Shown here one piece after another: positions 17,604 to 63,059 of a DNA stretch of 64,000 nucleotides. Position numbers and translations under genes: made by a program. The DNA comes from Desulfosarcina sp. BuS5 (GTDB lineage: Bacteria > Desulfobacterota > Desulfobacteria > Desulfobacterales > BuS5): the NCBI RefSeq assembly GCF_028752835.1, contig NZ_CP087952.1:1717041-1781040 (forward strand). The letters run 5' to 3'. Below the pieces are notes generated by a model. The model did no database searches, was not told where the DNA came from, and saw only the letters and a list, made by a program, of their open reading frames with translations. The first letter of the stretch is position 1. Each line of letters begins with the position of its first letter.

Positions 17604-17697
17604 CAGACTTTTGGATATAGGAATAAACACCCTTAGAAGAAAACTAAAAACTTACGGGGTAAAGTCTTTTTGATGCAATCGTCCTTGCATATTTCCC

Positions 17698-17792: not shown

Positions 17793-18674
17793 ATGCACGA
17801 TATAAATTATTCACACAAGCATGAGCTGGGTGAACATGATTTTTCAGGCTGCTGCAAGGATTGCCATACAAGCGTGCTTATCATTAAACCGCATATCATG
17901 GCGTTTGCCGCCCGGATAAAGCGTTATACCAGGGAGATGCTTTCGGCCCTTCAACCGGATGAAGTTTACAGGCTTTATCAGATTTTAGATGATCTTGCTC
18001 ACATGGATACCGGGACCCATCTTGCCGGGCTAATTCTTGAAGAACCTGATATCAATAAAGCGCTTCCGATAATCCGTTCCTATTACAGCACGTTTTTCGA
18101 CATTCATGAGACGTACCTGGCACAAGAGCTGCTCAAGTCCGACAACCCGTGGGAAATCCTTAAAGCATTTCCGCTTTATCCACGCTATGAGACATTGATA
18201 AGAAACCAGGTAAAGGCCAGGCATATTACAAATAAAAGCAGACTGGTCTTCATCGGGTGCGGTGCTGTTCCCATGAGCCTGATCCTGTTGAGCCGTTTAT
18301 ACGGCATCCGCTCAATCGGTCTGGAGTCTTCTAAAGAAACAGCAAAACTGTCAACAAAGGTGATTCAAGCTCTTGGCCTGGAAAAAGAGGTTGAAATCAT
18401 ACACAGCGACGATTTGGATCTTGAAAAACTAGATTGGGACATAGCTCTTGTCGCTGCCCTGGCGGAACCTAAGGCGCGTATTTTTAAAAGCCTTGGCAGG
18501 GTCCTGGAAGAGAGGAAAGATGCTTTTGTTATTTTTCGAACTTATACAGGTATGCGCGCTGTTCTGTATGAGCCTGTGCAGCCCGCTGATATCAAAGGCT
18601 TTAAAATAGTCAAAGAGATTCTTCCCACCGGGCGGGTAAATAACACCACCGTTTTTGCGGAATTAGAGGGATGA
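17793..18674 (+). CDS. Nicotianamine synthase-like protein 1
   Basis: 293 residues of the nicotianamine synthase (NAS) family, which join aminobutyryl groups from S-adenosylmethionine to make metal chelators (nicotianamine in plants and archaea, staphylopine precursors via CntL). The SAM-binding block VFIGCGAVPMSLILLSRLYG and the acidic GLES follow an N-terminal helical domain. Glu106 (HETYL) and Tyr132 (YPRYE) sit where the archaeal NAS has its catalytic Glu and Tyr. The first 27 residues are unusually His/Cys rich (H2, H8, H10, H15, C20, C21, C24, H25), a possible metal site not typical of the family. The gene overlaps the next by 4 bp. The product cannot be named from sequence. Confidence 0.82.
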   Translation: MHDINYSHKHELGEHDFSGCCKDCHTSVLIIKPHIMAFAARIKRYTREMLSALQPDEVYRLYQILDDLAHMDTGTHLAGLILEEPDINKALPIIRSYYSTFFDIHETYLAQELLKSDNPWEILKAFPLYPRYETLIRNQVKARHITNKSRLVFIGCGAVPMSLILLSRLYGIRSIGLESSKETAKLSTKVIQALGLEKEVEIIHSDDLDLEKLDWDIALVAALAEPKARIFKSLGRVLEERKDAFVIFRTYTGMRAVLYEPVQPADIKGFKIVKEILPTGRVNNTTVFAELEG

Positions 18675-19507
18675 AAAAAAACAGTCTATATTACGTTAAA
18701 GATGAATTTTTAGATAGTTATTCTTCAATTTGTAATCTTACGGATGAAGAAATACTTTGCAAACCTGACGATGATTTCCGCTTGCATTTTGAAAGACTGA
18801 ACCGCCTGGCCGCGATGGATGTTGATGATCAGGATGTTGAAGAAATGCTTTACGATAAAAAACTTCAGCCGGTCATAAAACATATCTCCTATCTGAAAAA
18901 AATATACGGTCTTAAAATGGAGATTGAGTTCGCCCGATCGATTATTGACGCTCCGGATCCCTGGAGATTGCTTAAGCGTTTTAAGTTTTATCCCAATTAT
19001 CTTGAGCTGGCACGTATGGAATATCAGGGAGGGGATCTGAAACCGGACGACAAAGTCGTTTTTATAGGAAGCGGGCCTTTGCCGATGAGTCTTGTCTCTC
19101 TCTACAAACAATACGGGGTTAAAGGCATCGGCATTGAACAAGTTCCGGAATATGCAAATCTTTCCCAAAAACTTGTCAAAGCCCTTGAACTCACCGACTA
19201 TATTCGTATCATTTCAGGAAACCATTTATCTTTACCTGCGCACGAAAAGGTTCAACTGATCATGGTCGGCGCTGATGCCTGCCCAAAAGATGAAATTTTT
19301 AAACATCTCGCAAAAACCCTTGAGAATGGAACAAAGCTTTCCTACAGGATCTATGAAAAAGGCTTAAGACGCCTTCTGGATGACAAACCGGTTTTGGATA
19401 TTCCCCATGAATTGAGGGAATATGCACACATACGTCCTAAACCGCCGGTTAATAATACTCCTGTCTTTCTGGTCAAAGATATCGGCAGGCAAGATAAGGG
19501 AGATTAA
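18671..19507 (+). CDS. Nicotianamine synthase-like protein 2
   Basis: 278 residues, a second NAS homologue, clearly diverged from the upstream gene. It keeps the SAM pocket (VFIGSGPLPMSLVSLYKQYG, then GIGIEQ), a Glu pair at about 84/86 and Tyr110 in FYPNYLEL, close to the spacing of the archaeal enzyme. It lacks the His/Cys-rich N-terminus of its neighbour. Start overlaps the previous stop by 4 bp, and the next gene starts directly at its stop, so the three are one translational unit. Two unequal NAS proteins suggest sequential aminobutyryl transfers or a heterodimer; both are inferences. Confidence 0.82.
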   Translation: MKKNSLYYVKDEFLDSYSSICNLTDEEILCKPDDDFRLHFERLNRLAAMDVDDQDVEEMLYDKKLQPVIKHISYLKKIYGLKMEIEFARSIIDAPDPWRLLKRFKFYPNYLELARMEYQGGDLKPDDKVVFIGSGPLPMSLVSLYKQYGVKGIGIEQVPEYANLSQKLVKALELTDYIRIISGNHLSLPAHEKVQLIMVGADACPKDEIFKHLAKTLENGTKLSYRIYEKGLRRLLDDKPVLDIPHELREYAHIRPKPPVNNTPVFLVKDIGRQDKGD

Positions 19508-20620
19508 GTGACGGAAAAATTATTAGATAGCAGTAAATCGATTCCGACTCCTTTTCTCCTTGTAGAAGAAAAAATTATAAAAAAAAACATAAACCGCATT
19601 TATAATTATGCAAGACTGCATGGATTTGCGGTAAGACCCCACATTAAAACCCACAAATCCCTTTATCTTGCCCGCCTGCAGATTGATACGGGAGCTGTCG
19701 GCATTGCAGTCGCAAAAGTCGGGGAAGCAGAAAAAATGGCGGAACTTGGGTGGCTGGATATTACCATAGCCTACCCGGCCATAGGAAACGAACGTGCGCT
19801 GCGATTGGCCGGGCTTTCTTGTAAACAAAAAATAAGAGTTGCGGTCGATTCCGAATATGGAATCGACGAGCTTGCAAAAGCAGCGGCCATGCATAAGACT
19901 GTCATCGGCATTCATATAATGTTCGACGCCGGACTTCACAGGTGCGGAGTTTCCGATCAGGAACAAATTATAAGGCTTGCTCAACATATAGAAAAACATG
20001 CAGGACTTCGCTATGAAGGCATCCAGATCTACCTGGGACATTTGTACGGAGATGCTGCCGGGAATCCGCAAAGTTTCAAGCAGATTAATCGGTTATGGGA
20101 GCCGGTCTATGAAGCTTTGTGCTCTGCCGGATTCTGTCCGCAAACGGTTTCATCCGGTTCCACGCCTTCCCTGGAAAAGACCCATCTTGTCTCGCACGTT
20201 AATGAAATAAGGGTGGGAACAGCTTTTTTAAACGATTATTTTGTTGTAAAGTTTGGACACTGCGCCCTGGAAAATTGTGCCGCCAGGGTAGTGGCAACCG
20301 TTGTTTCTGATGTTACTCCAGGCCAGGTTATAATTGACGCCGGTTCAAAAGGGCTTTCTGCAAAACAGTTGCTGCGCCGGGATAACCTTGAAATGGGATA
20401 TATCCCGGCCTATCCCGAGGCCCGGATTTTTCGCCTTCATGAAGAACACGGCTGGCTTGATGTAAGTCATTGCAAGAATCCCCCCGGGATCGGACAGCGG
20501 CTGAGCATTATCCCTGTAAATGTAAGTCTTTGTTTTAACCTGTATGATTATTTTTATCTGCTGAGCAGCGACGGTACTTTGCAAAAAGAGCGCATTGACG
20601 CCAGGGGCTTATATATTTAA
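19508..20620 (+). CDS. Fold-type III PLP enzyme (D-threonine aldolase/D-serine dehydratase-like)
   Basis: 370 residues starting at GTG directly after the NAS-2 stop. The N-terminal TIM barrel has RPHIKTHKS, with Lys47 as the expected PLP-binding lysine, and the C-terminal beta domain has the LHEEHGW motif. In the aldolases and eukaryotic-type D-serine dehydratases the following PNHxC motif binds a divalent metal; here the aligned residues (336-340) read PVNVS, so both ligands are lost. The family includes amino-acid racemases, aldolases and dehydratases. Together with two NAS genes a role in supplying or modifying an amino acid for a metallophore is plausible. A damaged copy of its 3' half lies at 45775-46362. 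Confidence 0.78.
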   Translation: MTEKLLDSSKSIPTPFLLVEEKIIKKNINRIYNYARLHGFAVRPHIKTHKSLYLARLQIDTGAVGIAVAKVGEAEKMAELGWLDITIAYPAIGNERALRLAGLSCKQKIRVAVDSEYGIDELAKAAAMHKTVIGIHIMFDAGLHRCGVSDQEQIIRLAQHIEKHAGLRYEGIQIYLGHLYGDAAGNPQSFKQINRLWEPVYEALCSAGFCPQTVSSGSTPSLEKTHLVSHVNEIRVGTAFLNDYFVVKFGHCALENCAARVVATVVSDVTPGQVIIDAGSKGLSAKQLLRRDNLEMGYIPAYPEARIFRLHEEHGWLDVSHCKNPPGIGQRLSIIPVNVSLCFNLYDYFYLLSSDGTLQKERIDARGLYI

Positions 20621-20683: not shown

Positions 20684-21991
20684 CAGTAGTGTCCGGTTAG
20701 GTTTTTGCATGTTATATGGGATAAAAAAATTAGAAAAATGTTCATTTTTTACTTGACAAACCAAATAAAAATTTTTTATCGTTTTGTTATAAAATATAAT
20801 TATAACAAGGAGTTAAGACAAAAATGGACATATTCAATATCCCAAAAAAGAATTTTAATCCCCAATCTCATGCTCGATTTCTCAAACCTTTGCAAAAGAT
20901 TTTTCCTGACACGCCACAGCTTAAATCCCGAGGTCACAGGCCATTGAAAATGACTTTTGAAGATCAGCTTCACGCACTGATATTTTTCCATCTACAAGAA
21001 CATGAATCAGCTCGTGATCTTATTCAACACCTTAAAGAAGACGATTTTGCCAAAGAATGTGTCGCTCCAGATGGAGGGATCAGTCGTAGCAGTTTTTCCG
21101 AAATTATCAATTCTCGAGGGCTTGAACAGCTTGAATATGTTTTTCAAGCTCTTTGCAGCCAGGCACAAAATGCTTTACCATCAAATTATTCAGATCTCGG
21201 TGAACTCGTTTCCATTGATGGATCTTTAATTGATGCAGTTCTGTCCATGTACTGGGCTGATTACAGAAAAGGCGCTAAAAAAGCAAAAGGCCATTTCGGC
21301 TTTGATGTCAATCGCAAGATTCCTATAAAAATTCATCTGACAAATGGAAATGGCGCTGAACGCCCCTTTGTCAGGTCTATCCTTACAAAAGGCCAAACAG
21401 GAATCATGGATCGGGGGTATCAATCACATAAGGATTTTGATCTTCTTCAGGATGAAAAAAAACATTTTGTTTGCCGCATCAAAGCGAAAACAACAAGAAC
21501 TATTATCAAAGAGCAGCCTGTTGATCCCGACAGCTATATTTTTTATGATGCTGTGGTTCTTCTTGGCACTCCTGGGGTAAACCAGACCAGAAAGCCGGTT
21601 CGACTGGTTGGTTATAAAATTGCCGGTGTCAAATATTTTGTGGCAACTGATCGTTATGATCTTACAGCCGAGCAGGTTGCAACCGTTTATAAGCTTAGAT
21701 GGGATATCGAAACTTTTTTCAAATGGTGGAAGAAACATTTAAAAGTGTACCACTTGATTGCTCACAGTAGATATGGCCTGATGGTTCAAATCCTTGCGGG
21801 GTTAATAACCTACCTGCTTATGGCCATATACTGCCATGAACAGTTTAATGAACCTGTATCAATAAAGAGGATTCGTCAGCTTAGAAATACCATCCAGAAC
21901 GAATTACGTACTGACGAAAAAAACGTATGGTCTAATAATCTGATTATCAAAGAGCAAATGCTATATGCAAAAACTTAACCGGACACTACTG
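20684..21991 (+). mobile_element. Intact IS4-family insertion sequence
   Basis: Terminal inverted repeats beginning CAGTAGTGTCCGGTTA (left from 20684, right ending 21991) continue into AGTTTTTGCAT with one mismatch. A 9-bp direct repeat ATAAAGTTT flanks the element (20675-20683 and 21992-22000), which marks a clean transposition. The single transposase gene fills the interior. It inserted into a promoter-leader module duplicated at 34990-35310. Confidence 0.93.
20824..21978 (+). CDS. IS4-family transposase
   Basis: 384 residues with an N-terminal DUF4372-like segment (IPKKNFNPQSHARFLKPLQ) and a DDE catalytic domain: Asp in VSIDGSLID, Asp in GIMDRGYQSH, and the IS4 YREK-type signature in YKLRWDIETFFKWWKKHLK carrying the catalytic Glu. 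Full length with no stops. AAGGAG precedes the ATG by about 9 bp. With intact inverted repeats and a perfect target duplication the element may be active. Confidence 0.93.
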   Translation: MDIFNIPKKNFNPQSHARFLKPLQKIFPDTPQLKSRGHRPLKMTFEDQLHALIFFHLQEHESARDLIQHLKEDDFAKECVAPDGGISRSSFSEIINSRGLEQLEYVFQALCSQAQNALPSNYSDLGELVSIDGSLIDAVLSMYWADYRKGAKKAKGHFGFDVNRKIPIKIHLTNGNGAERPFVRSILTKGQTGIMDRGYQSHKDFDLLQDEKKHFVCRIKAKTTRTIIKEQPVDPDSYIFYDAVVLLGTPGVNQTRKPVRLVGYKIAGVKYFVATDRYDLTAEQVATVYKLRWDIETFFKWWKKHLKVYHLIAHSRYGLMVQILAGLITYLLMAIYCHEQFNEPVSIKRIRQLRNTIQNELRTDEKNVWSNNLIIKEQMLYAKT

Positions 21992-22868: not shown

Positions 22869-25100
22869 ATGAAAAATTTTTTGTTATGGGCATTTATATT
22901 CGCTCTGTTTTTTACCCTCCACGGCCTTGCCATTGCGGAAGATAATAACGAAGGCGAGGTAATCAAGCTTGGCAAAGTGGTGGTCACGGCAACAAGAACA
23001 GAAAAGGATGTAGACAGCGCACCTGGCAGCATTACCGTAATCACAAGTGAGGATATTCAAAAACATAAGATTTATGCCCTGGATGAAGCTATAAAATATG
23101 AAGCCGGTGTTTTTGCCAAACGCGTCAAGGGACTTTCCGAATCGATGGCCAAGGTTCAACTCAGGGGGCTGCACGGACAGGATATGACCCTTGTTTTGCT
23201 GGACGGGCTGCCGCTGAATGATGGGTACAACGGAAGTGTTGACTGGAACACTATCAGCACGGAAAATGTGGAGCGGATCGAGATTATCAGGGGGCCTTCA
23301 TCCGCTCTTTACGGCGGCAACGCCATGGGCGGCGTAATTAACATTATTACCAAAACACCGGATAAGTTTTACGCAAATACAAAGCTGGGATACGGCCGTT
23401 CCGATACATACCATGATGACACATACCGGTACAGCATTAATATAGGCGACAGGTTCATGGACAAACTTAGCGTGGGCCTTGGTTTTGAACGTGAAGAGAC
23501 AAACGGTTATCCGACCTGTTTAATAACAAGCTCGATCAGTTCCGGAGCAGGAACCCTTACAGGCGGCTGGGAAACTGAAAACACCTCGGGAACCCGCAAA
23601 TGGGTGGTCGGCGACAGGGGTGATAATTCAGCCAAACGATGGAACTTGAATCTGAAAACAAAATACGATCTTACGGATACCGGAAGTCTTGCTTTTAATT
23701 TTCAGAGGGGACTCCACCGGTATGACTATGACAGTCCTCATACTTATTTGCGGGATGAAAACGGGAACCCGGCATTCACCGGAAGCGTTGATGTTGGCGG
23801 AGGCCAGTATGCCACTGTAACGCCGTTAATTTATGCCAACTATTCCGGAATAAGCGAAAAAGAGAATTCCAACTATTCCCTGGTATACAAAGAGATGTTT
23901 GGACCGTTTGCCTTTAACGGTAAAGCCGGATATCAAAAAAGGGAGAAATGGTACACCTCAGCCAAGCCATCATTAACACAAAGCTATGATAATGCCAGGG
24001 GCACATTATCCGAAAGCGATTCTGATTCCTGGTTTACTGATCTGCAGGCCAGCCTGCCTTTGGGAGCTGAACATCTTTTAACATTCGGTTTATATTTCCG
24101 GCATGATGATATTGAAACTGACAACTATAATATTTCTTTTTTTCGGGATGAGCACAGCAAAACGGAAAAAACCACAATCATCGAAGGGAACGACCGATTT
24201 TATGCGGTCTATCTTCAGGATGAATGGCAGATTATAGACAAGCTTACCCTTTTTACGGGTATCCGTCTTGATTACTGGGAGGCGTTTGACGGAGAATCGG
24301 GCAATGTCGGTGATGTGGAAAAATTCGATGAGCCGGAAGACTCCGCTTTCAGCCCCAAGGTTGCGCTTGTATTTAAACCTGTTGCCGACACCATAATTAA
24401 GGGATCTGTTGGCAAGGCTTTTCGCGCTCCTAATATCTATGATCTTTACAGCTCATGGTCGTCAGGCAGTAAAACCTATCATTTTAACCCTGATCTTGAT
24501 CCTGAAACCTTGTGGAATTATGAAATCGGCGTTGATCAGTATCTTTTTTCAAGGCGGATAAAACTCTTCGCCACCTATTTTCATACAGATATTGATGATC
24601 TGATTTACAAACATTCTGAGAAAATTGGTGGACACACTCATTACTACAAAGAGAACGCAAGCGAAGCTGAAATCGATGGAATTGAGCTGGGGATCAGCGC
24701 AAAACCTGTTAACTGGCTCAAGCTCTGGGGCAACTATACCTATAATGATTCTGAAATCAAAAAACACGATTATAAGCCAGAATTCGAGGGTAAAAAAATA
24801 GAAGATATGCCTTTAAGAACCGGTAATGTCGGCGTTGACATCACTTATAAATGGATTACCGCGAGCTTGGAAGGCCAGTATATGGGGAAGTTTTATAGCG
24901 GTGCGCTGAATGATGATGTAAAAGACGTGTACGGCGGCTATACTGAAAAATACTGGCTATGGGATACAAAGATCAGCATGGCGCCTGTTGATAATCTTGA
25001 ACTCTCCTTTTCCGTAGAGAACCTTTTTGACAGGGAATATTATGAATATTATGTGGGCAGCGAGCGTAGTTATTTTGTAGAGGTAAGCCTGAAGTGGTAA
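22869..25100 (+). CDS. TonB-dependent outer-membrane receptor (BtuB/haem-receptor type)
   Basis: 743 residues: signal peptide (cleavage near LAIA), TonB-box-like region before VVVTATRTEKD, plug domain (about 35-150, ending IEIIRGPSSALYGGNAMGGV) and a full 22-strand-type barrel ending in SLKW. At about 518-543 it has the FRAP box and a later NPDL motif with a histidine just before it (KTYHFNPDL), the arrangement that binds haem in HemR/HmuR-type receptors. The other well-known ligand of this branch is cobalamin. GGAAA precedes the start. It heads a run of importer and CobN genes and would be energised by a TonB system such as that at 1.7-6.9 kb. Confidence 0.9.
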   Translation: MKNFLLWAFIFALFFTLHGLAIAEDNNEGEVIKLGKVVVTATRTEKDVDSAPGSITVITSEDIQKHKIYALDEAIKYEAGVFAKRVKGLSESMAKVQLRGLHGQDMTLVLLDGLPLNDGYNGSVDWNTISTENVERIEIIRGPSSALYGGNAMGGVINIITKTPDKFYANTKLGYGRSDTYHDDTYRYSINIGDRFMDKLSVGLGFEREETNGYPTCLITSSISSGAGTLTGGWETENTSGTRKWVVGDRGDNSAKRWNLNLKTKYDLTDTGSLAFNFQRGLHRYDYDSPHTYLRDENGNPAFTGSVDVGGGQYATVTPLIYANYSGISEKENSNYSLVYKEMFGPFAFNGKAGYQKREKWYTSAKPSLTQSYDNARGTLSESDSDSWFTDLQASLPLGAEHLLTFGLYFRHDDIETDNYNISFFRDEHSKTEKTTIIEGNDRFYAVYLQDEWQIIDKLTLFTGIRLDYWEAFDGESGNVGDVEKFDEPEDSAFSPKVALVFKPVADTIIKGSVGKAFRAPNIYDLYSSWSSGSKTYHFNPDLDPETLWNYEIGVDQYLFSRRIKLFATYFHTDIDDLIYKHSEKIGGHTHYYKENASEAEIDGIELGISAKPVNWLKLWGNYTYNDSEIKKHDYKPEFEGKKIEDMPLRTGNVGVDITYKWITASLEGQYMGKFYSGALNDDVKDVYGGYTEKYWLWDTKISMAPVDNLELSFSVENLFDREYYEYYVGSERSYFVEVSLKW

Positions 25101-25144
25101 TTTCTATAATAAAATTTAACGTAACCGTTCACGGTTTATGGTAG

Positions 25145-25164
25145 GGGCACGATGCATCGTGCCC
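25145..25164. repeat. 20-bp perfect palindrome
   Basis: GGGCACGATGCATCGTGCCC, preceded by GTAG, is identical to the copy at 7014-7033. It sits 16 bp before the binding-protein start. Confidence 0.75.
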
Positions 25165-25179
25165 TAAAAGATAAATATC

Positions 25180-26082
25180 ATGGAAATAGTTTTAATAATG
25201 ATACGCACAAAATGCTTTAAATTATTTAAGTTCTTATTTGCCGTAATTTATATATTTTTAATAGCCGGTATTTTTGGTGGAACAGCAGCGATAGTAAGTG
25301 CGGGGGGAGAACCATCTCACCCGCGCCGGATTGTCTGCCTGGAGACCTATCCCGCGGAAATAATCTGTGATCTGGGAGAGATGGACAGAATTGCAGCTGT
25401 TTCAAAGTTCCAAAAACATAACTCATACTATACTTTTTTAAAAAATAAACCCGTTGTAGGGGGTGGTGTCGGCAGTAATATCAATCTGGAGATGATTCTG
25501 GGTGTCAATCCTGATCTGGTTTTTTGCTCGTACGGGCAGGCGGATATTTTAAAAACCAGAGGATTAAATGTATACTGCACAAAAACCTATAACATCGAAG
25601 GTATTATGGAACTTATAACGGATATAGGAAAGATAGCAGGGAAGGAGAAGGAAGCAAAAAAGATTGTCGCTGAAATGAAAGCCAGAATACAAAGGGTTGA
25701 AGTGAAAGTAAAAGAAGTGAAAAAAAGGCCTTTGGTATATTTTGAACAAAGCTCATTAGGGAAGACAAGGTCAAAAGGTTCTTTGACCCATGAGTTGATC
25801 ACCAGGGCCGGCGGGATAAATATAGCAAAAGACGAGCCGGTGCCTTTTCCTCTTCTTTCCCAGGAATTTATAATTAAAAAGAATCCTGACATCATCATTC
25901 TGGAAGAATGGGGCACCAAACCTTCCAGTGTTAAAGAAAGAGACGGCTGGAAAAATATTAAGGCCGTAAAATCAGGCAAGATATTTCAAAGCAAATCATA
26001 TTATACCGGATACACTCAGCGCTGCCTGGACGGACTGGAAGAGTATGCAAAATCCTTTTATCCGGAGTTGTTCAATAAATGA
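25180..26082 (+). CDS. Periplasmic binding protein (BtuF/HmuT/FepB family)
   Basis: 300 residues with an N-terminal signal and anchor. The true start may be 25198, as both fit. The mature part has the two-lobed class III layout: RRIVCLETYPAEIICDLGEMDRIAAVS at the start, LEMILGVNPDLVFCSYG in lobe one and the long linking helix after KEAKKIVAEMKAR. Such proteins deliver cobalamin, haem or ferric siderophores from the outer-membrane receptor to the permease. The stop overlaps the permease start by 4 bp. The ligand cannot be told from sequence. Confidence 0.87.
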   Translation: MEIVLIMIRTKCFKLFKFLFAVIYIFLIAGIFGGTAAIVSAGGEPSHPRRIVCLETYPAEIICDLGEMDRIAAVSKFQKHNSYYTFLKNKPVVGGGVGSNINLEMILGVNPDLVFCSYGQADILKTRGLNVYCTKTYNIEGIMELITDIGKIAGKEKEAKKIVAEMKARIQRVEVKVKEVKKRPLVYFEQSSLGKTRSKGSLTHELITRAGGINIAKDEPVPFPLLSQEFIIKKNPDIIILEEWGTKPSSVKERDGWKNIKAVKSGKIFQSKSYYTGYTQRCLDGLEEYAKSFYPELFNK

Positions 26083-27086
26083 AGAAAAAATTATTTTTAA
26101 TATTTCTCGGGCTTGGCCTTTTGCTGACACTGCTGATAACTTTAACCATAGGCCCGGTCCGGATAAATGTTCTGACAGTAGTAAAAATACTATGTTCCGG
26201 AATTATTGATATACATAGAACATGGCCGGATAATTTTCAGGAGATTATACTGAATGTAAGACTGCCGCGGATACTGCTGGGAATTCTTGTGGGGTGTGCA
26301 TTAAGCGTTTCAGGATGTTCCATGCAGGCGCTGTTTAAAAATCCGATGGCATCTCCGTATGTATGCGGCGTGGCTTCCGGCGGCGCATTCGGAGCTTCTT
26401 TAGTTATAGTTTTTAATGTTTCACAGAGCCTTATAATGCCGGTTGCGTTTTTCTTTTCCCTGCTTACGATATTTGTTGTTTATTATGTTGCAAAAACAGG
26501 CAGCAAGGTTTCAAGCGAAACGCTTTTACTGTCAGGCATCGCCCTGTCGCTTTTTTTCTCAGCGGCTACTTCATTTCTACAATATTTGGCGGAAGAAGGC
26601 GAACTGCGTCAGATAATATTCTGGCTTATGGGCGGATTGTGGGCAAGCAGCTGGAGTAAAGTGAAGATTGTTATCCCTGTAATCTTATTTGGAACAATAT
26701 GCCTGCTCTTTTTCTATAAAGAGATGAATATCCTTCTTCTCGGTGAAGAACAGGCGCAGGATGTAGGTGTGAATGTTGAGAAAACAAGAAAAATTATCCT
26801 TGTGCTTGCCGCCCTGGTAACCGCGGGCGCTGTTGCTGCCTGCGGAGTTATCGGGTTTATCGGATTAATTATTCCGCATATAATGAGAATAGTTGTAGGC
26901 CCTGATCACAGGATTCTTCTCCCTGCATCCTGTTTATGCGGCAGTATATTTCTTGTATGGATAGATACTTTTGCAAGAACACTTATCTCCCCCACTGAAC
27001 TGCCGGTGGGAATTATTACAGCTATGATCGGGGTGCCGTTTTTTCTGCTTTTGCTGCGCAAGAGAAAAAAGTTATCGGGATTTTAA
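26079..27086 (+). CDS. ABC importer permease (BtuC/HmuU/FecCD family)
   Basis: 335 residues with about ten membrane helices. The conserved RLPRILLGILVGCALSVSGC near residue 63 and GVIGFIGLIIPHIMRIVVGPDHR near 253 are diagnostic of FecCD permeases. It pairs with the binding protein (4-bp overlap upstream) and the ATPase (3-bp gap downstream) to form a complete importer with the TonB receptor. Confidence 0.92.
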   Translation: MKKKLFLIFLGLGLLLTLLITLTIGPVRINVLTVVKILCSGIIDIHRTWPDNFQEIILNVRLPRILLGILVGCALSVSGCSMQALFKNPMASPYVCGVASGGAFGASLVIVFNVSQSLIMPVAFFFSLLTIFVVYYVAKTGSKVSSETLLLSGIALSLFFSAATSFLQYLAEEGELRQIIFWLMGGLWASSWSKVKIVIPVILFGTICLLFFYKEMNILLLGEEQAQDVGVNVEKTRKIILVLAALVTAGAVAACGVIGFIGLIIPHIMRIVVGPDHRILLPASCLCGSIFLVWIDTFARTLISPTELPVGIITAMIGVPFFLLLLRKRKKLSGF

Positions 27087-27089
27087 ACA

Positions 27090-27881
27090 ATGGAACTGGA
27101 AATACTTGATTTAAGCTTTTCATATAACAGCGCAAAAACCCTGGATGGTATAGCCCTGAAAATTAAGGGAAGAGATATCCTGTGCATTATCGGACCAAAT
27201 GGTTCCGGGAAAACAACCCTTCTTAAATGCATGAACAAAAAATTGAAACCGACAACCGGCACCGTACTGGTCAATGATATGGATATTTTGCGGATGAACA
27301 GAAAAGAAGTGGCAAAAAACATAGGTGTTGTACCGCAGGTTTCAACTGTTTCTTTCCCCTTTACGGTTTATGACCTTGTTATGATGGGGAGGTATTCCCA
27401 CATGGGAAGATTTAACACAGAAAATGAAAATGACAGGGCTGTTGTGCATCAATGCCTTGCCCGTATCGGGCTTGCACACATGGCAGATAAACTTATAACC
27501 GAGATTTCGGGTGGTGAATACCAAAAAGCTATCATAGCCCGCGCTCTGGCTCAACAGCCAAAGATTCTTCTTTTAGATGAAGTGACTTTGCATCTTGATA
27601 TAAACCATCAAATCGAAATCCTGGAACTTGTTAAGACTTTGAGTGAGGAAGAGAATCTTGCAATAGTAATGGTGCTTCACGATCTGAGTCTTGCCGCAAG
27701 ATACAGCACAAAAACAATAATGCTTCAAAAAGGCAGGATTTTTGCCGGCGGCAGGCCGGAAGATGTGATCAGTATTGAAAATATCAGGGATATTTATGGT
27801 ATAGAAGTTGAGATAGGACGCAGCAGTAAAGGTAATTGTTTGAACGTTATTCCGCTTTCAATAATAAACAGAGAGCAGTAA
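27090..27881 (+). CDS. ABC importer ATPase (BtuD/HmuV/FecE family)
   Basis: 263 residues with Walker A (GPNGSGKTT, about 34-42), Q-loop, signature ISGGEYQKAIIARALAQ, Walker B ILLLDE and H-loop VLHDLSLAARY. Directly after Walker B the usual DEPTSHLD reads DEVTLHLD, a Pro-to-Val change that leaves the catalytic Glu. This is the last gene of the BtuFCD-type importer; CobN-1 follows after 48 bp on the same strand with its own Shine-Dalgarno. Confidence 0.92.
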   Translation: MELEILDLSFSYNSAKTLDGIALKIKGRDILCIIGPNGSGKTTLLKCMNKKLKPTTGTVLVNDMDILRMNRKEVAKNIGVVPQVSTVSFPFTVYDLVMMGRYSHMGRFNTENENDRAVVHQCLARIGLAHMADKLITEISGGEYQKAIIARALAQQPKILLLDEVTLHLDINHQIEILELVKTLSEEENLAIVMVLHDLSLAARYSTKTIMLQKGRIFAGGRPEDVISIENIRDIYGIEVEIGRSSKGNCLNVIPLSIINREQ

Positions 27882-27929
27882 ATATTCTCCTGAGAGATTA
27901 GGAACGAGGACGAAAGGAGTTATAAAATC

Positions 27930-30900
27930 ATGACCCGGGATTTGCCATATACAGGATTTTATCATCCGGACAGCAAGGTTATACATAAAGATATCGCCGG
28001 ATATATTGATTGGTACGAAAAAAATAAACTAAAAGACCCGGAAAAGAAAAAACGCCATAGAGCAGGTATCTTTTTTTCACGGCACCAGATTGAAAAAAAA
28101 AATTTATGCGGTATAGACGCCTTGATTAAAGAGGTTGAAAAATACAATATAATTCCGGTGCCGGTCTTTTCGCAGCAAAAGGAACATGCAAGCGAAGATT
28201 GTCTGGGGTATAATGTAGATTTAAACCAATTGAAAAACACCGACGTTATAATCAATTGTGTTTCATCTTTCCTGTTTCAAACAGACATGACAGCCGATAA
28301 CAACAAAACAGTGCTTGATTTAATTGACGCGCCGGTTTTTCAGGCGATCTCTTCAAGCGGCAGAAGTGAAGCGGAATGGCGTGGCAGTCCCCAGGGAATA
28401 ACTGCAATGAACCAGATTTACTGGGTTGCTCAGCCTGAATTTAACGGCACAATAGAGCCTACTGTTATCTTCGCAAAGGACAGGGAAAGCAAAGACAGAT
28501 ACGCCTCATTGTTGCCTGTAAAAGAGCGGATAGAGTTTTTTACGCGGCGTATAAAAAACTGGCTGAAATTGAAAGAACTGCCGAAAAATAAAAGAAAAAT
28601 TACTATTCTGCTTCATAACAACCCCTGTGCGGGAACCGAGGCTTCGCTTGGTGGAGCCAACGGGCTTGATTCGTTTGAAAGCGTGGTAAAACTAATGAAG
28701 CATCTCGCTGACCAGGGCTATCATATAGAAAATATGCCGGAAAACGGCAAAGCTTTGACAGATGAATTTTTAGACAAAAAAGCTGTCAGCGAATTCAGGT
28801 GGACTACAGTCGAAGAGATAGTTGATAAAGGCGGAGCCGCGTTTTTTATAGATCCTGATAAATATGCTTACTATTTCAATCAATTATCCGAAATAAACAG
28901 GAAAAAAATGATTGAAAACTGGGGAGAGCCGCCAGGCAAGGGTATGGTGTACGGTGATAGAATTGTAGTTACAGGTTTAACTTTCGGCAATATAAAAGTG
29001 ATGGCTGAACCCAAGCGCGGCTGCTACGGAGCGCGCTGTGACGGCGAAGTGTGCAAAATACTGCATAACCCCGAAATACCGCCTACGCACCAGTGTTACG
29101 CAGTGTTCAAATGGATACAGGAAAATTCGGATATTATTATTTCAACCGGTACACACGGGTATATAGAGTTTCTCCCGGGCAAGGCAAGCGGCATGAGTTC
29201 CGACTGTTTTCCCGAGATAATCACAGGGGATGTGCCGCACATATATATCTATACAAGCAAAAACCCCAACGAGGCGATCATAGCAAAGCGCCGCGCGTAC
29301 GCTGTTATAACAGACCACATTATCCCGTACATGCAGTCTGCAAAATTGTATGATGAACTCTGTGAAATGGATGACCTGCTTTTACAATATAATAATGCGG
29401 CCCTTTTAAATGAAAGCGGCAGGAAAAAGATATTATGCGACGATATACGCAATCTCGCGGTAAAATTAAAGCTGTTGACTGCCTCCGAAAAACACCCCCT
29501 CGAAAATATGAAGGACGACGAGGTGGTTGAGAAGGTTCATGATAAATTGTTTTTGCTGCGCGATTCAAGCATAAACGACGGGCTGCATATATTGAGCAAA
29601 ACCAATGATAATGAAAAAACAGCCAGGATGATAGTGGCGATACTCAAATATGATGGAAGCCTGCCGTCAATCAGGAGATGTATCCTTGATATCATGGATT
29701 TAAACTATGATGAGATTATCAAAAACCCCCGGGAAACACAGCTCCTTGATAAATGCGAAAAAATCGCGTTCTTGCTTGTGGAAAATCTATTAAGGAATAA
29801 CCGGGTTGATGAAGACTTTATTGCCCTTCAATTCAAAAATATTAAATTCAATCGATCAAAGATTAACAGGTTGCTTATTCTGCTGACATGGATAAAAGAT
29901 AAACTATATCCGGACTTGATGAAAACGGATCGAGAGATACCGCAGATAGAAAATGCCATGGACAAACGCTATATCAGTCCCGGCCCCGGCGGAACACTGA
30001 CGCACGGCAAAACAGATGTCCTGCCTACAGGTAGAAATATCTACAGTATTGACCCGAGAAAAATTCCTACAAAAGCAGCTTATAAAATCGGCGTAAAACT
30101 GGCGGATGAAATACTGAACAAGTACATCAAGGAAGAAAATAAATATCCGGAAAAGATAGGCATGGTATTGTGGAGTCTGGATGCATACATGGCGGATGGT
30201 GAGCAGTTAGCCCAGATACTGCATTTGATTGGCGCGCGGCCTCTCTGGAACGAAAGCGGCATAGTGACAGGGGTTGAACCCGTACCCTTGCAGGAGTTAA
30301 ACCGGCCGCGTATCGATGTTACCATCAGGACAAGCGAAATATTCAGGGACACATTGCCGAACCTGGTTGAACTGCTCGACAGCGCTGTTGTAATGATAGC
30401 AAATCTTAAAGAAGATGCTGCGAAAAATTATATTCTTAAAAATGCAAATGAATACAAAAAAATCGCAAAAAAAGAAAATAAGTCAAAACTGGCGAATGAA
30501 GCGCTGAACCGCGCTGCAACTTTCAGGATATTTGCTGCAAAGCCCGGCGCTTACGGCAACGGTATAAAACTAATGATAGCGGCAAGCGCGTGGAAAACGA
30601 TAAAAGATTTAGCCGAGACTTTTATAGATCACGGAGGATTTGCTTACGGCCAAGATCTGTTTGGTCAAAAGGCTCACGGCGAGTTCGCCCATAATCTAAA
30701 GACTATAACAACAGTATTTCATAAAACAGAAACCGATGAAACCGACCCTCTCGGCTGTTGTTACAACGATTTCCAGGGCGGTATGACAGCTGCTGTCAGA
30801 GCGCTTTCAAATTCAACACCAAAAGTGCTCTGGGGTGATACCAAAGATCCCGCTAACCCGAAAGTGCGTGAGTTAAGCGAGGAGATAGAACGGGTTATCA

Positions 30901-31340
30901 GGGTTAAACTGCTTAATCCCCAGTGGATCGACGGCATGAAAAAGCACGGCTACAAAGGCGCGCAGGACATGGCGCATAAGGCGGCAGCGGTTTACGGGTG
31001 GGATGCCACATCAGATGTCGTAGATGACTGGATTTTCGATGAGCTGACAAAAAAACATCTCCTTGATAAAGAGATGCGGGAGTTTTACGAGCAAAACAAT
31101 CCCTGGGCGCTTGAAGAGCTTGCACGCAGATTTTTGGAGGCGGAACAGCGTGGTCTGTGGAAAGCCGACCCGCAGGTGTTAAAGGATTTAAAGGAGATCT
31201 ATCTTGAAATTGAAGGCTGGATAGAAGAAAAAATGGGAGATGTTGAAGGCGATTTTCAGGGCGGCTCAGTCGATATTTTCACATCTGAGGACGTAAAGAA
31301 CTGGGGAGAAAAGATGAAAGAGGTGAGAAATGAAAAATAA
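27930..31340 (+). CDS. cobN: CobN/magnesium-chelatase H-type protein 1 (short form)
   Basis: 1136 residues of the CobN/BchH class I chelatase family. AAAGGAGTT precedes the ATG. Conserved blocks include [31 protein letters not shown] and the C-terminal [16 protein letters not shown] cysteine cluster [15 protein letters not shown] (about residue 365) replaces the plain segment of aerobic CobN and is shared with CobN-2. It lacks the first ~150 residues of CobN-2, starting directly at the GFYHPDS block. The enzyme would insert or remove a metal in a tetrapyrrole using ATP through ChlI/ChlD. Its place behind a haem- or B12-type importer raises the HmuS-like dechelatase option. It overlaps chlI by 11 bp. 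Confidence 0.87.
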
Positions 31341-32370
31341 AAATTTAACGTATCCTTTTACGGCCATTGTTGGTCAGGGAATAATGAAAAAGGCCCTTAT
31401 TTTAAACGCTGTCAATCCGAAACTCGGCGGGGTTTTAATCCGGGGTGAAAAGGGCACCGCAAAGTCAACCGCAGTGCGGGCGCTGGCAGCCCTTTTGCCG
31501 GAAATAGAGGTGGTGGCCGACTGCAAATTCGGATGCGATCCTCACAAGAAAGGAAGCATGTGCATGGAATGTATAACCCGGCAGGATGGCGGGGAAGAGC
31601 TTTCCGTAAAAAAGAGAAAAACACGGGTGGTCGAACTTCCTGTAGGTTCAACGGAAGACAGGGTTGTCGGTTCCCTTGATATAGAGCGCGCAATAAAAAA
31701 GGGGGAAAAACGGTTCGAGCCAGGGATCCTGGCGGAGGCAAACCGGGGAATCCTCTATGTGGATGAAGTGAATCTCCTTGACGACCATATCGTCGATGTT
31801 CTCCTCGATTCTGCTGCAATGGGTGTAAACACCATAGAAAGAGAAGGCGTTTCATACTCTCACCCTGCTGAATTTATCCTTATCGGGACAATGAACCCTG
31901 AAGAAGGGGAATTGCGGCCCCAGCTTCTTGACCGCTTTGGTTTGTGTGTTCATATTGAAGGGATAGCGGATATTGAGCAGAGAATGGAGGTTGTAAAAAG
32001 AAGAACATCTTATGAAAATGATCCTGCCGGATTTCAGGATGCCTGGAAAGAGGAGGAGGAAAAACTCAGAAATTCCGTTATCCGGGCCAAAGAACTTTTG
32101 GAAAAGACAGCCGTTTCCGATGATATGCTGCGTCTGATCGTACACATCGCCATTGAAATGAATGTGGACGGTCATCGTGCGGATATTATAATGATGAAGG
32201 CAGCCAGGACGCTGGCCGCATTAAATGGACGAAAAGATGTCCTAAAAGAGGATGTGCAGACAGCGGCGGACATGGCCCTTCAGCATAGGATGCGTAGAAA
32301 ACCGTTTCAAAAACAGGGCGTGGAAGAAGAAAAAATAGCTGGAATTATTTCTCATGAAAAAAGTGCCTAA
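31330..32370 (+). CDS. chlI: ChlI/BchI-type AAA+ ATPase subunit
   Basis: 346 residues: AAA+ domain with Walker [10 protein letters not shown] (about 37-45), Walker [14 protein letters not shown], sensor and arginine-finger block [19 protein letters not shown], and a C-terminal helical lid. A four-cysteine insert [17 protein letters not shown] after the first helix could bind Zn or Fe-S; the same insert occurs in the ChlD below. ChlI forms the hexameric motor that acts on the CobN/BchH subunit. The start lies inside the end of cobN-1, so expression is coupled. Confidence 0.9.
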
Positions 32371-32487
32371 AATGCCTAAAGTTAATGAATCGCTTCGCTC
32401 TATTTTTTTAAATAGGATTGGCAGAATACCTTAACTTCAGGCACGTTACGGACTTTAGCGCACTTATAACTTCAAAAAAGCCTAAAG
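32360..32487. repeat. 9-bp repeat array, upstream of the four-helix gene
   Basis: AAGTGCCTAAAATGCCTAAAG, then GTTAATGAATCGCTTCGCTC (inverted match to about 22471-22490), then GATTGGCAGAATAC and further ACTTTAG/GGCAC units. The GATTGGCAGAATAC block is repeated, with small changes, at about 37360. Confidence 0.65.
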
Positions 32488-32502
32488 TTGAAATGTCCAA
32501 AA

Positions 32503-32856
32503 ATGAAGAATAAGGAATTTGCGAAAGAACTGGAAAAACGGACACGAAAATTTGCGGTGAGTATCATACAGTTATCTTCACAGTCGCCGAATACCCCTGA
32601 GGGGAATGTGATACGCAATCAAATTACTAAATCGGGCACTTCTATTGGCGCTAATTATCGAGAGGCAAATCGTGCCTGAAGCAATGCTGACTTTAAAAAC
32701 AAAATTAAGATTTGTGAAAGTGAAGCCAGTGAAACCCAATACTGGCTTGAAGTAATTGTAGAATCCGAAATATTATTATGGGAGCAGGTAAAAGGAACCC
32801 ACGACGAATGTAGTCAGCTATTGGCTATCTTCACTTCCATTGCAAACAAACTTTAG
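32503..32856 (+). pseudogene. Four-helix-bundle (S23/rRNA intervening-sequence protein) gene with an in-frame stop
   Basis: The frame encodes KEFAKELEKRTRKFAVSIIQLS and then TKSGTSIGANYREANRA, the conserved core of S23-type four-helix-bundle proteins found in 23S rRNA intervening sequences and widely in bacteria. A TGA at 32677-32679 sits where the family usually has Arg (RARS), a simple CGA-to-TGA change. The frame then continues SNADFKNKIKICESEASETQYWLE to a TAG at 32856 with good family character. 117 codons in total. 9-bp repeat arrays flank it on both sides. Confidence 0.75.
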
Positions 32857-32925
32857 GCATTTTACGGACTTCACGGACTTCACGGACTTCACGGACTTTA
32901 GGCACTTTAGGCACTTTAAAAAGAG
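32852..32925. repeat. 9-bp repeat array, downstream of the four-helix gene
   Basis: CTTTAGGCA, TTTTACGGA, then three units of CTTCACGGA and two of CTTTAGGCA lead directly to the ribosome-binding region of chlD. Confidence 0.8.
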
Positions 32926-32933
32926 GTAATATC

Positions 32934-34961
32934 TTGGACTGGACAAAAAGAGAAATCTATCCATTTGCGGCCATTGTGGGTCAGGAAAAAATGACCCGGG
33001 CTCTTATTCTAAACGCGGTCTGCCCCTCTATCGGGGGACTGCTGATCAGGGGGGAAAAGGGAACTGCAAAATCAACCGCTGTCCGCGGCCTGGCTGCCAT
33101 TTTACCGGAGATTGAAATCGTTGCCGGATGTCCGTTTAATTGCGATCCCGATAAATATGAATACCTGTGCGCCGAATGCAGAAAAAAAGTGAAACAGGGC
33201 ATCAATCTTCCTGTAATGAAGAAAAAGATAAAGGTTGTCGATCTTCCCCTTGGCGCTACCGAGGACAGGGTATTGGGGAGTCTCGATTTTGAACATGCGG
33301 TAAAAAAGGGGGAAACGTTTTTTACACCCGGCCTGCTGGCGGCAGCCCATAGGGGAATTCTTTATATTGATGAAGTCAATCTGTTGGATGATCATATAGT
33401 GGATATTATTCTTGATGCCGCGGGTATGGGAATGAATATTGTCGAGCGGGAAGGCGTTTCCTGCATGCACAGGGCAGAGTTTATCCTGATCGGAACCATG
33501 AATCCCGAAGAGGGGGAACTGCGGCCGCAACTCCTTGACAGGTTCGGGATGTGCATTCAGGTTGAAGGAATAAAAGACCCGGTTGAAAGAATCCGGCTGA
33601 TCAAACAAAGAGACCGTTTTGATAAAAACAGCTCTGATTTTATAGCAGAGTATCAAAATTCTCAAGACAGGCTTTGTCAGAAAATTATACATGCAGGGAA
33701 ACGCTTTCCCCATGTAAAAATTTCAGAAGAAATGGTGAAGCTCTGCTCAAAACTTGCGCTGGATGCTTTTGTGGCCGGTCACCGGGCGGATATTATTATG
33801 AGAAAAACAGCCATCACCATAGCATCCTGTGAAAATAGAAAAGAGGTAACCGAAAAAGAGGTTAATGAAGCCGCTGATCTTGTGCTGCTTCATCGTGTAA
33901 GGATGCCGCCTTCTCCACCGCAGCATCAGCCTGAAGAAAAAAAAGAAGATCCGCCGGCTCCACCCGATGAAGAAAAAGAGGAAGAAAAAGAACCTGAAAA
34001 AGAAGAAGAAAAACCGGAAACCCAAAATCAGCAAAAGACTGAAGAAGGAAAGAAGGCAGATGAGGGGGAGGGAGAAAAAAAAGATAAAGAAAAACCGGAA
34101 AAAGGCCGGCCCCTTGAAATGGTCTTCCCTGTGGGGGAGATTTTTAAAACAAAAAGAATTCAGATGGAAAGGGACAGGGTACTCCGGAAAGGTTCGGGCA
34201 GAAGAAGCCGGACAAGGTCGTCCTCAAAGGCCGGCAGATATATCATGAGCAGAATGCAGCGCAAGACCAGTGATCTGGCCCTGGATGCCACTATAAGGGC
34301 CGCCGCCCCTTATCAGAAACAAAGAAGAAGAGAAGATGTAGCCATTGCCATTGAAGAAAGCGATATTCGTGAAAAGGTAAGAGAGAAAAGGATCGGAAAT
34401 TTTATTGTCTTTGTTGTGGATGCCAGCGGCTCCATGGGAGCCGGAAAACGGATGATTGAAACAAAAGGGGCTATTCTCTCTCTTCTTCTCGATGCTTATC
34501 AGAAAAGGGACAAGATATCAATGATAGCATTCAGGGGAGATCATGCCGAGGTTCTTCTTCCACCCACCGGCAGCGTGGAGCTTGCCCATAAACTTTTGGA
34601 AGAGCTCCCCACCGGGGGGAAGACCCCGCTCTGCCATGGGATATCCCTCGGCTATCAAATTATTCAAGGCCATTTCCGGAAAGACCCTGACACGTATCCA
34701 TTGCTGATACTTATCTCCGATGGAAAGGCCAATGTTAGTCAATATGGCGGAAAACCTTTTGCCGAGGCTATGGAAATGGCCGAGGAGGTGAAAAATGACA
34801 CCCGGGTCAATACAGTAGTGGTTGACGTTGAAAAACCCGGGCTGATCTCCTTTGGACTGTCTCATCAATTATCCGTCGGAATGGGGGCCGGATATTTCAA
34901 GATTGAAGATCTCAAGGCGGATACATTGGTAGAAGTTCTACGGGAAAATTTATTATGGTGA
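32934..34961 (+). CDS. chlD: ChlD/BchD-type subunit: AAA+ plus von Willebrand A domain
   Basis: 675 residues starting at TTG, 7 bp after AAGAGGT. N-terminal AAA+ domain (Walker [10 protein letters not shown] near 38-46; [13 protein letters not shown]) with the four-cysteine insert CPFNCDPDKYEYLCAEC, then a Pro/Glu/Lys-rich acidic linker (about 320-395), a basic patch (GSGRRSRTRSSSKAGR) and a VWA domain whose MIDAS motif DASGSMG is near residue 496. In Mg-chelatase the D subunit links the ChlI motor to the large chelatase subunit through this VWA domain. Unlike plant-type ChlD, its Walker A looks intact. It serves either or both CobN proteins. Confidence 0.9.
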   Translation: MDWTKREIYPFAAIVGQEKMTRALILNAVCPSIGGLLIRGEKGTAKSTAVRGLAAILPEIEIVAGCPFNCDPDKYEYLCAECRKKVKQGINLPVMKKKIKVVDLPLGATEDRVLGSLDFEHAVKKGETFFTPGLLAAAHRGILYIDEVNLLDDHIVDIILDAAGMGMNIVEREGVSCMHRAEFILIGTMNPEEGELRPQLLDRFGMCIQVEGIKDPVERIRLIKQRDRFDKNSSDFIAEYQNSQDRLCQKIIHAGKRFPHVKISEEMVKLCSKLALDAFVAGHRADIIMRKTAITIASCENRKEVTEKEVNEAADLVLLHRVRMPPSPPQHQPEEKKEDPPAPPDEEKEEEKEPEKEEEKPETQNQQKTEEGKKADEGEGEKKDKEKPEKGRPLEMVFPVGEIFKTKRIQMERDRVLRKGSGRRSRTRSSSKAGRYIMSRMQRKTSDLALDATIRAAAPYQKQRRREDVAIAIEESDIREKVREKRIGNFIVFVVDASGSMGAGKRMIETKGAILSLLLDAYQKRDKISMIAFRGDHAEVLLPPTGSVELAHKLLEELPTGGKTPLCHGISLGYQIIQGHFRKDPDTYPLLILISDGKANVSQYGGKPFAEAMEMAEEVKNDTRVNTVVVDVEKPGLISFGLSHQLSVGMGAGYFKIEDLKADTLVEVLRENLLW

Positions 34962-34989
34962 GCATGATTCATTCGGACTTCAAAAAACC

Positions 34990-35310
34990 AATTTCTTATT
35001 GACAATAACAACTATAATATAATATATAAATTCAAGTATATAATATGAAATTATATAAAAAATTAAGTTACACGTTTAAAGTTCAGTCAGCCGAAAATAA
35101 ATTTTTTTAGCGGTCTAATAACAGTTTATAATATATAAGCTGTAAAATATAAACAAAAAAGCCAGGAAGGTTTTAAAGGGCAAAAATGCCTTGTAATCTT
35201 TCTGGCTTTTTTTTTGGAGGAACGGATAATATTTTAAAACAAGCTTTTAATACACGGTTTTATTTATCTTTTTTTGTTTTTATCGTGATTGCTGGTTTCT
35301 TTTTATCAAC
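34990..35310 (+). promoter_or_regulatory. Duplicated promoter-leader module, copy 2 (uninterrupted)
   Basis: TTGACA (near 34999-35004) and TATATA 18 bp on form a promoter; the following ~150 bp to the terminator match copy 1 (20640-20683 plus 21992-22285). It ends about 30 bp before the Gate-domain gene. Conservation covers promoter, leader and hairpin, so it was duplicated as one unit. Confidence 0.55.
35155..35216 (+). terminator. Two-stem intrinsic terminator-like hairpin, copy 2
   Basis: Same structure as at 22130-22189: AAAGCCAGGAAGG pairing with CTTTCTGGCTTT, an inner GGGCA/TGCC stem and a run of nine T. It may end transcription from chlD or attenuate the downstream gene. Confidence 0.75.
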
Positions 35311-35339
35311 CGCCTTTTCGTGTAGCTTAGGCACATTCG

Positions 35340-36332
35340 ATGATTGATCTTTTTATACAAAGCCTGTTCGATACATGGCGGATTGTTCCGAGGGTATTAA
35401 TTATCATGTTTATATCCCTGTATGTTTCTCAGGTATTGATAGAATTGGGTCTGTTCAAAAAACTTGAATTTATCGGGAAGCCATTGGCAAGCCTTTCCAA
35501 TCTGCCCCGTGAGGCCGGCATAACGTTCGTGGCCTCATTCGGCTCTGTCCTTGCCGGAAATGCCATGATAGCAAAGCTTTATCAGGACAAAAAAATAGAC
35601 AGCAGCCAGACACTGCTGACCGCCCTCCTCAACACAACCCCTGTCTATCTGAAAGAGACTTTTACATATCAGATTCCGGTAATGATCCCCTTGCTCGGCA
35701 TCAGGGCAGGGCTCCTTTATTTTTTGACATTTATCGTATCAGGAATAGTCAAGGTTCTTTTTGTTATTATTTATGGAAGAATCAGGCTGCAAAGCAATAA
35801 CCCGGGGACAGATAGATTCGATCCTGATTGTGTAGATTCGGGTCGCGTAGATACGAATACTATAACACGAAGCAAGCTTGGCAAAACTCTTGTTTCATCT
35901 TTTGCACGGCAGAAAAAGATCTTTTTTAAGATAAGCATCATCTTTGTATCAACGACTTTTTTCATATTTCTGTTGATCAATAATGGCATTATAAAAGGAT
36001 TGGCAGATTATGTCCTGCCGTTAACGGAATTTTTTAAACTCCCCCCGGCCTCTGTTCTTCCTGTCGGAACTTATATGTTCAGCCCGCTGGTAGGCGCCGG
36101 CTTAATCGGAGCCATGATTAAAGACGGCATCCTGAGCGATTTGCAGGGGTTTACAGCCTGTCTTCTTGGAAGTCTGCTGATGCTCCCGATTTTTGCGGTC
36201 AGGTATTCCTTTGCCAAGTATGCATCGCTTTTCGGGTTTTTAATGGGATCGAAAATCCTGTTTGTTTCAACCGGTCTGGGAATGCTCAACCGTGTGGTTT
36301 TTCTTATGTTTCTTTTAATTATAATTGAATAG
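35340..36332 (+). CDS. Gate-domain (nucleoside recognition family) membrane protein
   Basis: 330 residues with about seven to eight membrane segments. Two Gate-type halves are visible: one around SNLPREAGITFVASFGSVLAGNAM (about 55-80) and one around PVGTYMFSPLVGAGLIGAMIKDG (about 240-263), separated by a charged loop (about 150-190). The Gate fold occurs in nucleoside transporters and in the C-terminal half of the FeoB iron permease. It lies between chlD and cobN-2, so transport of a metal or tetrapyrrole is a reasonable guess. A full promoter-leader module sits in front, suggesting separate control. Confidence 0.7.
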   Translation: MIDLFIQSLFDTWRIVPRVLIIMFISLYVSQVLIELGLFKKLEFIGKPLASLSNLPREAGITFVASFGSVLAGNAMIAKLYQDKKIDSSQTLLTALLNTTPVYLKETFTYQIPVMIPLLGIRAGLLYFLTFIVSGIVKVLFVIIYGRIRLQSNNPGTDRFDPDCVDSGRVDTNTITRSKLGKTLVSSFARQKKIFFKISIIFVSTTFFIFLLINNGIIKGLADYVLPLTEFFKLPPASVLPVGTYMFSPLVGAGLIGAMIKDGILSDLQGFTACLLGSLLMLPIFAVRYSFAKYASLFGFLMGSKILFVSTGLGMLNRVVFLMFLLIIIE

Positions 36333-45665: not shown

Positions 45666-45774
45666 TTAAGAAATTAACACCTATTCGGCGGTGTGGCAAA
45701 CGTCGCTATCTAAATTTTGGTTTTCAGAAACAAAGTGATGAATAAAGGATAAAAGTAAAAATGACAGGCTCTGC

Positions 45775-62972: not shown

Positions 62973-63059
62973 TACTTCATTGCCGGGTTAAGCTTTAAAG
63001 AAGCATTTTTAGTGTAAATCAAGGCCATTGGCTCCGATTGATCATTTTTTATTATAATT

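Follow-up and report, generated by a model that had tools for sequence, protein, structure and literature searches.

The window, by which we mean the whole stretch of 64,000 nucleotides of Desulfosarcina sp. BuS5 DNA that was analysed, carries a cassette of two genes coding for nicotianamine synthase (NAS) homologues, hereafter NAS1 and NAS2, followed by a gene for a PLP enzyme (Table 1). The ORF list bears out the coordinates given for the three genes in an earlier note on this DNA, which had also described them as fused by overlaps; this is true of the NAS1/NAS2 junction, a 4-nt ATGA overlap, but not of the NAS2/PLP junction, where the TAA stop codon simply abuts the GTG start codon (TAAGTG), with neither overlap nor gap. 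An HdrA-like gene precedes NAS1 on the opposite strand. Downstream, an IS transposase gene, which is no part of the NAS/PLP system, stands between the cassette and a block of genes for a TonB receptor, transport proteins and CobN-type proteins (the TonB/CobN block), and 0.9 kb of other sequence lies between the end of the transposase gene and the start of the receptor gene. An Rfam search of the window and of five loci returned group II introns and tRNAs only, and no metal riboswitch.

Table 1. Position and strand of the cassette and of other features in the window
Feature	Position	Strand	Remarks
Group II intron, copy 1	14680-16815	+	reverse transcriptase ORF identical in all copies
HdrA-like gene	16806-17630	-	precedes NAS1, opposite strand
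NAS1	17793..18674	+	293 aa; MtNAS-like aminobutyryl transferase, PF03059
NAS1 His/Cys-rich tail	17793-17864	+	N-terminal part of NAS1
NAS2	18671..19507	+	278 aa; diverged NAS paralogue, PF03059
PLP gene	19508..20620	+	370 aa; GTG start; PF01168 and PF14031
IS transposase (DDE_Tnp_1)	20824..21978	+	PF01609, 83 bits; between cassette and TonB/CobN block
TonB receptor, periplasmic binding protein, FecCD permease, ATPase, CobN, ChlI, ChlD, Gate protein	22869..36332	+	profile matches
Second CobN	37463-41407		after the TonB/CobN block
Degenerate 3' copy of PLP gene	45766..46360	+	residues 173-370, frameshifted, ~92% identical; tblastn and genome search
Group II intron, copy 2	53222-55357	+	as copy 1
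Group II intron, copy 3	59003-61138	+	as copy 1
selB	61086-63151	-	3' end of selB apparently replaced by group II intron; range includes the tRNA-Sec
tRNA-Sec	63064-63151		just beyond selB

Judged by sequence and, for NAS2, also by a structural model, both proteins are members of the NAS family and, within it, resemble the Methanothermobacter enzyme (MtNAS) and not CntL, the enzyme with which the earlier note had compared them. The Pfam NAS profile (PF03059; cut-off 27.1 bits) scores NAS1 at 85.6 bits and NAS2 at 101.1 bits. In a phmmer search of the PDB, MtNAS was the top match for NAS1 (E=1.5e-50) and for NAS2 (E=3e-29), CntL being weaker for both (1e-4 to 1e-5), and the CntL equivalog model NF033601, with a cut-off of 350 bits, gave only 36.9 and 36.2 bits for the two proteins. 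An AlphaFold model of NAS2 (pLDDT 85.6, pTM 0.82) found as its best PDB match 3fpe, the complex of MtNAS with thermonicotianamine (TM 0.84/0.88, 2.2 A), with CntL next. Thus, HMM searches and structure prediction, as proposed at the time, confirmed the assignment to NAS, and no other methyltransferase family gave a better match. The catalytic residues Glu81 and Tyr107 (MtNAS numbering), whose presence in both proteins had likewise been noted, are invariant in 16 NAS1 and 15 NAS2 proteins (E106/Y132 in NAS1 and E84/Y110 in NAS2 of the window), and their counterparts are essential in Arabidopsis NAS1 (PMC10248798). NAS1 and NAS2 are predicted to transfer aminobutyrate from SAM with release of MTA. 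Weak NAS matches in four other genomes (G023, G386, G514 and G434) were discarded, as the overlapping frames resemble CheR or generic SAM methyltransferases and not NAS.

The two paralogues have diverged considerably. Across 232 aligned columns, identity to MtNAS is 36-41% for NAS1 proteins and 26-34% for NAS2 proteins; in a separate comparison, mutual identity between NAS1 and NAS2 is ~30-35%. In an unrooted tree a long branch parts NAS1 from NAS2 and MtNAS falls on the NAS1 side, which makes the pair an old one; when a CntL fragment was included it drew a branch length of 8 and its placement was useless, so that the usable split is that of NAS1 plus MtNAS against NAS2, unrooted. Residues R70, Y73, R106, T222, T224 and Y231 of MtNAS are kept by NAS1, whereas in NAS2 these positions are mostly occupied by S, K, N, I, K and D; two specialised aminobutyryl transferases are thus likely and, as far as the alignments go, NAS1 and NAS2 may well use different acceptors. 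NAS1 further carries a nearly invariant N-terminal tail, MHDINxxHxHELxEHDFxGCCxDC, in which H2, H10, C20, C21 and C24 are invariant in 16 of 16 sequences; the His/Cys-rich tail is absent from NAS2 and is possibly a metal-binding element or a means of metal-dependent control of the enzyme.

That NAS2 lacks a number of residues which MtNAS and NAS1 have in common would also fit a non-catalytic, regulatory NAS2, with NAS1 alone making ordinary thermonicotianamine or nicotianamine, and the strict pairing and conserved overlap of the two genes suggest that their products form a complex. We consider a purely regulatory NAS2 improbable, however, as besides Glu81 and Tyr107 the NAS2 proteins retain the SAM-binding loop in the alignment and share R221, Y223, G225, R227, N255 and N256 (MtNAS numbering) with NAS1, R227 being missing in one NAS1 only, and as the dN/dS of NAS2 (0.13-0.20) is nearly as low as that of NAS1.

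The PLP protein matches Ala_racemase_N (PF01168) and D-ser_dehydrat (PF14031), in agreement with the fold III originally assigned to it, and both sequence and model searches point to D-threonine aldolase (4v15) as the nearest solved structure; the model itself is moderate (pLDDT 75, falling below 50 at residues 240-258 and 280-296 in the C-terminal half, which limits its use for locating a second catalytic base across the PLP ring, as racemases of the alanine-racemase type have). The beta-hydroxyl is activated in D-threonine aldolase by a metal held by His347 and Asp349, with His193 proposed as the base, and in serine dehydratase the metal ligands are His and Cys (PMC4401734). The NAS-linked orthologues share with these enzymes the two domains, the fold, the PLP lysine (Lys59) and Tyr187, but lack the rest of this apparatus: N/A and S/A occupy the metal-ligand positions in all 13 of the 13 orthologues reaching the region, and His193 is absent from all those examined. 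Among non-NAS homologues of the same class, in contrast, H-x-C or H-x-D is retained in 8 of 10. By these sequence comparisons, then, the PLP protein represents a subfamily, restricted to NAS loci, of the D-threonine-aldolase/D-serine-dehydratase fold in which both metal ligands have been lost. We reject a D-threonine aldolase or a D-serine dehydratase on the missing ligands, which, together with the missing His193, make beta-hydroxy chemistry unlikely; our best guess is that the enzyme would act at the alpha-carbon, as a racemase or epimerase.

The cassette was surveyed in samples of Desulfobacterota and in control genomes. Of the 389 genomes sampled from the class, ~27 matched the NAS2 profile, a number that rises to ~32 when the other families are added; about 32 Desulfobacterota genomes carry the NAS1-NAS2 pair, usually with the 4-nt ATGA overlap, which recurs across families, and searches with PF03059 in the order and phylum samples revealed further tandem pairs. 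Carriers with a name, from a contig scan in which the pattern was confined to close NAS2 relatives, include Desulfonema magnum 4be13, Desulfospira joergensenii DSM 10085 and MAGs of Desulfobacula and Desulfosarcina. Wherever the contig is long enough to tell, essentially every genome has NAS1 and NAS2 side by side; only G577 departs from this, its NAS1 being lost and its NAS2 frame interrupted by an internal TGA. The PLP gene lies directly 3' of NAS2 in at least 20 genomes. It is absent from at least 8 NAS-bearing genomes, seven of them without a match (G002, G051, G214, G369, G409, G499 and G574) and G415 with a distant homologue only, and hence the NAS1-NAS2 pair is the core of the cassette and the PLP gene an accessory. 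Strong PLP orthologues were nevertheless found in NAS genomes only, among the 389, apart from two fragments (G731 and G648), one of them broken. The gene order NAS-NAS-PLP was thus found by the neighbourhood survey to recur in many genomes, and its failure to co-occur elsewhere, which the earlier note had allowed for, was not seen. With dN/dS values of 0.11-0.22, all three genes are, by their sequences, under purifying selection, which together with the conserved order argues against a chance arrangement. Cassette genes are frequently present in a decayed or an additional copy, as in the window (Table 1) and in G001 (contig C192), G119 (C54), G612 (near C35:30630), G648 and G731; these copies include PLP fragments, split NAS1 and PLP genes and a second NAS1 gene, and suggest frequent duplication and loss of the cassette.

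The neighbour that recurs most tellingly was overlooked in the earlier note. Genes for a nickel-type ECF importer (NikKMLQO/CbiMQO) lie within 2 kb of the cassette at 8 of the 26 loci whose upstream flank is 2 kb or longer, and these eight span four families (f36, f30, f22 and f49). The Nik/Cbi genes are upstream and on the same strand in G574, G682, G577, G645, G723, G612 and G582, in the last of which an apparent transposase gene intervenes; in G051 a NikO-like gene is convergent to the cassette, at 68 bp. In D. joergensenii (G682) the order is nikK-cbiM/nikM-nikL-nikQ-nikO-NAS1-NAS2-PLP on one strand, with a gap of 61-64 bp between nikO and NAS1, and in G574, which lacks the PLP gene, a complete nik operon ends 45 bp upstream of NAS1-NAS2. 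A further genome, G530, has an importer 6.8 kb upstream of the cassette. Since CbiM loci are few, mostly one to four per genome (genome sizes 2.2-8 Mb), we estimate chance adjacency at ~0.2% per genome, or ~0.05 loci expected. The majority of NAS loci, that of the window included, have no adjacent nik operon (in the window's own genome the operon, L080, is ~60 kb from the cassette), and the link to nickel is therefore a statistical one. A search upstream of nik operons and within the loci for the NikR-type palindrome GTGTTAC-N13/14-GTAACAC (consensus from PMC545781) gave nothing convincing.

A ligand made by the same chemistry for another metal, that is, cobalt for cobamide supply, molybdenum/tungsten or zinc, has some neighbours in its favour. 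A CobN block adjoins the cassette in two genomes, an FmdE-family protein and/or a FecCD permease and ATPase are neighbours of NAS1-NAS2 in G369, G499 and G623 (L058, L061 and L117), a MoeA pair is found upstream of the cassette in D. magnum only, and the CbiM and CbiO models are named after cobalt. NikK and NikL, however, mark nickel systems (PMC2667541; PMC545781), although for a few bacteria the assignment of NikKMLQO systems has been changed to cobalt (PMC2667541). NikK (DUF4198) and NikL are encoded beside the cassette in G574, G577, G682 and G723, the other linked loci (G645, G612, G582 and G051) having other Nik/Cbi components, and NikL of G574 scores 191 bits against the NCBIfam model 'NikL family nickel/cobalt ECF transporter subunit' (cut-off 100). 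A metal other than nickel thus seems to us unlikely.

The earlier note had instead proposed a new metallophore operon, on the strength of a TonB receptor, importer, exporter and CobN-type chelatases following on the same strand. These genes are present in the window, where a secreted zincophore- or siderophore-like metallophore could make use of the TonB receptor, the BtuFCD-type (FecCD) importer and the ABC-2 exporter; G049 and G645 likewise have TonB receptors after the cassette, and in G612 the entire block adjoins it. Yet in the window the block stands behind the IS element, with 2.2 kb between it and the cassette, its adjacency is repeated, among the NAS loci examined, in a single other genome, G612, where it is convergent, and the near-cassette receptors of G000 and G049 are not orthologous (~35% identity over part of their length). 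In G001 and G214, the block genes and the receptor, respectively, are on contigs other than those with NAS genes; an intact NAS1 copy in G001 runs to a contig edge, so that linkage there is possible. Receptor and exporter are missing near most loci, and among the NAS loci compared neither a dedicated exporter nor an outer-membrane receptor is a recurrent neighbour, which makes a secreted metallophore doubtful; a ligand that stays inside the cell is likelier. The intervening IS element and the lone recurrence in G612 make the TonB/CobN block an occasional neighbour at best, and we set it aside as an essential partner. The block itself (and its counterpart at L122/L146 in G612) looks like a system of uptake proteins and chelatases for metal tetrapyrroles; the window's receptor is closest to heme receptor models, with a score below cut-off. 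The opine dehydrogenase reported missing was not found near the cassette: neither the window nor the flanks examined in its relatives have an ORF of the CntM type next to the cassette genes, and PF10100 gave no match in 10 NAS genomes, though none in the controls either.

On balance, we think it probable that the cassette makes, through the NAS1/NAS2 pair, a nicotianamine-like ligand, which probably handles nickel and is probably intracellular, not a secreted opine zincophore. That sulfate reducers make a nickel-binding molecule is suggested by the position of the pair directly behind nickel-uptake genes in several lineages. The family and fold of the NAS proteins, their catalytic residues, conservation and pairing, the loss of the PLP metal site and the clustering with importer genes are observed; from these we infer the chemistry of each step, the substrates, the product, the metal and the location, as follows. 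Nickel would enter through NikKMLQO. NAS1 and NAS2, translated together and probably partners, would act as SAM-dependent 3-amino-3-carboxypropyl transferases, one starting the chain on an amino acid and the other lengthening it. The PLP enzyme, where present, would act on the alpha-carbon of the amino-acid starter or of the product and set its stereochemistry, and the ligand would buffer nickel or carry it to nickel enzymes such as hydrogenases and CODH/ACS in sulfidic habitats. The fuller proposal, in which a hetero-NAS pair in a NikKMLQO operon and a metal-free fold-III PLP racemase that sets stereochemistry together provide sulfate reducers with a new nicotianamine-type intracellular nickel carrier, is put forward tentatively, with slightly less than even confidence.

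The nearest known enzyme, MtNAS (PDB 3fpe-3fpj and 3o31), shares with the cassette the family, the fold, Glu81/Tyr107 and, in NAS1, many other residues, but the cassette differs in having two diverged paralogues, the His/Cys tail of NAS1, a PLP enzyme and the link to a nickel importer. The CntKLM pathways for staphylopine, pseudopaline, yersinopine and bacillopaline also use a NAS-family aminobutyryl transferase and, in some cases, a racemase; here, in contrast, there are two NAS proteins of the MtNAS type, a fold-III PLP enzyme takes the place of CntK, a CntM-type opine dehydrogenase is lacking from the cassette, and there are no conserved Opp/EamA/MFS transporters. In bacteria, it is mainly through secreted zincophores that NAS-type chemistry is known (PMC7438024). 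The part of the literature covered by our search nowhere describes NAS pairs, cassettes of NAS and PLP genes or NAS genes with Nik importers, nor does it mention NAS genes accompanying NikKMLQO, and the claim that no pathway of such composition had been described stands to that extent. The recurrence of a nik importer in one operon with two NAS genes, not described in the literature searched, hints strongly from the genomic side at nickel handling by NAS products in anaerobes with a high nickel need and a sulfide-rich life, and this can be tested in cultured D. joergensenii DSM 10085 and D. magnum 4be13. The NAS-restricted PLP subfamily, in turn, points to an undescribed step of tailoring or starter supply.

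Elsewhere in the window, the three copies of one group II intron are inserted antisense beside or into HdrA-like genes and selB, which lie on the minus strand. Two ORFs, with ends at 55305 and 61086, look truncated, since both have in common an intron-derived tail (...PGRSIGYPTPPLQTRT).
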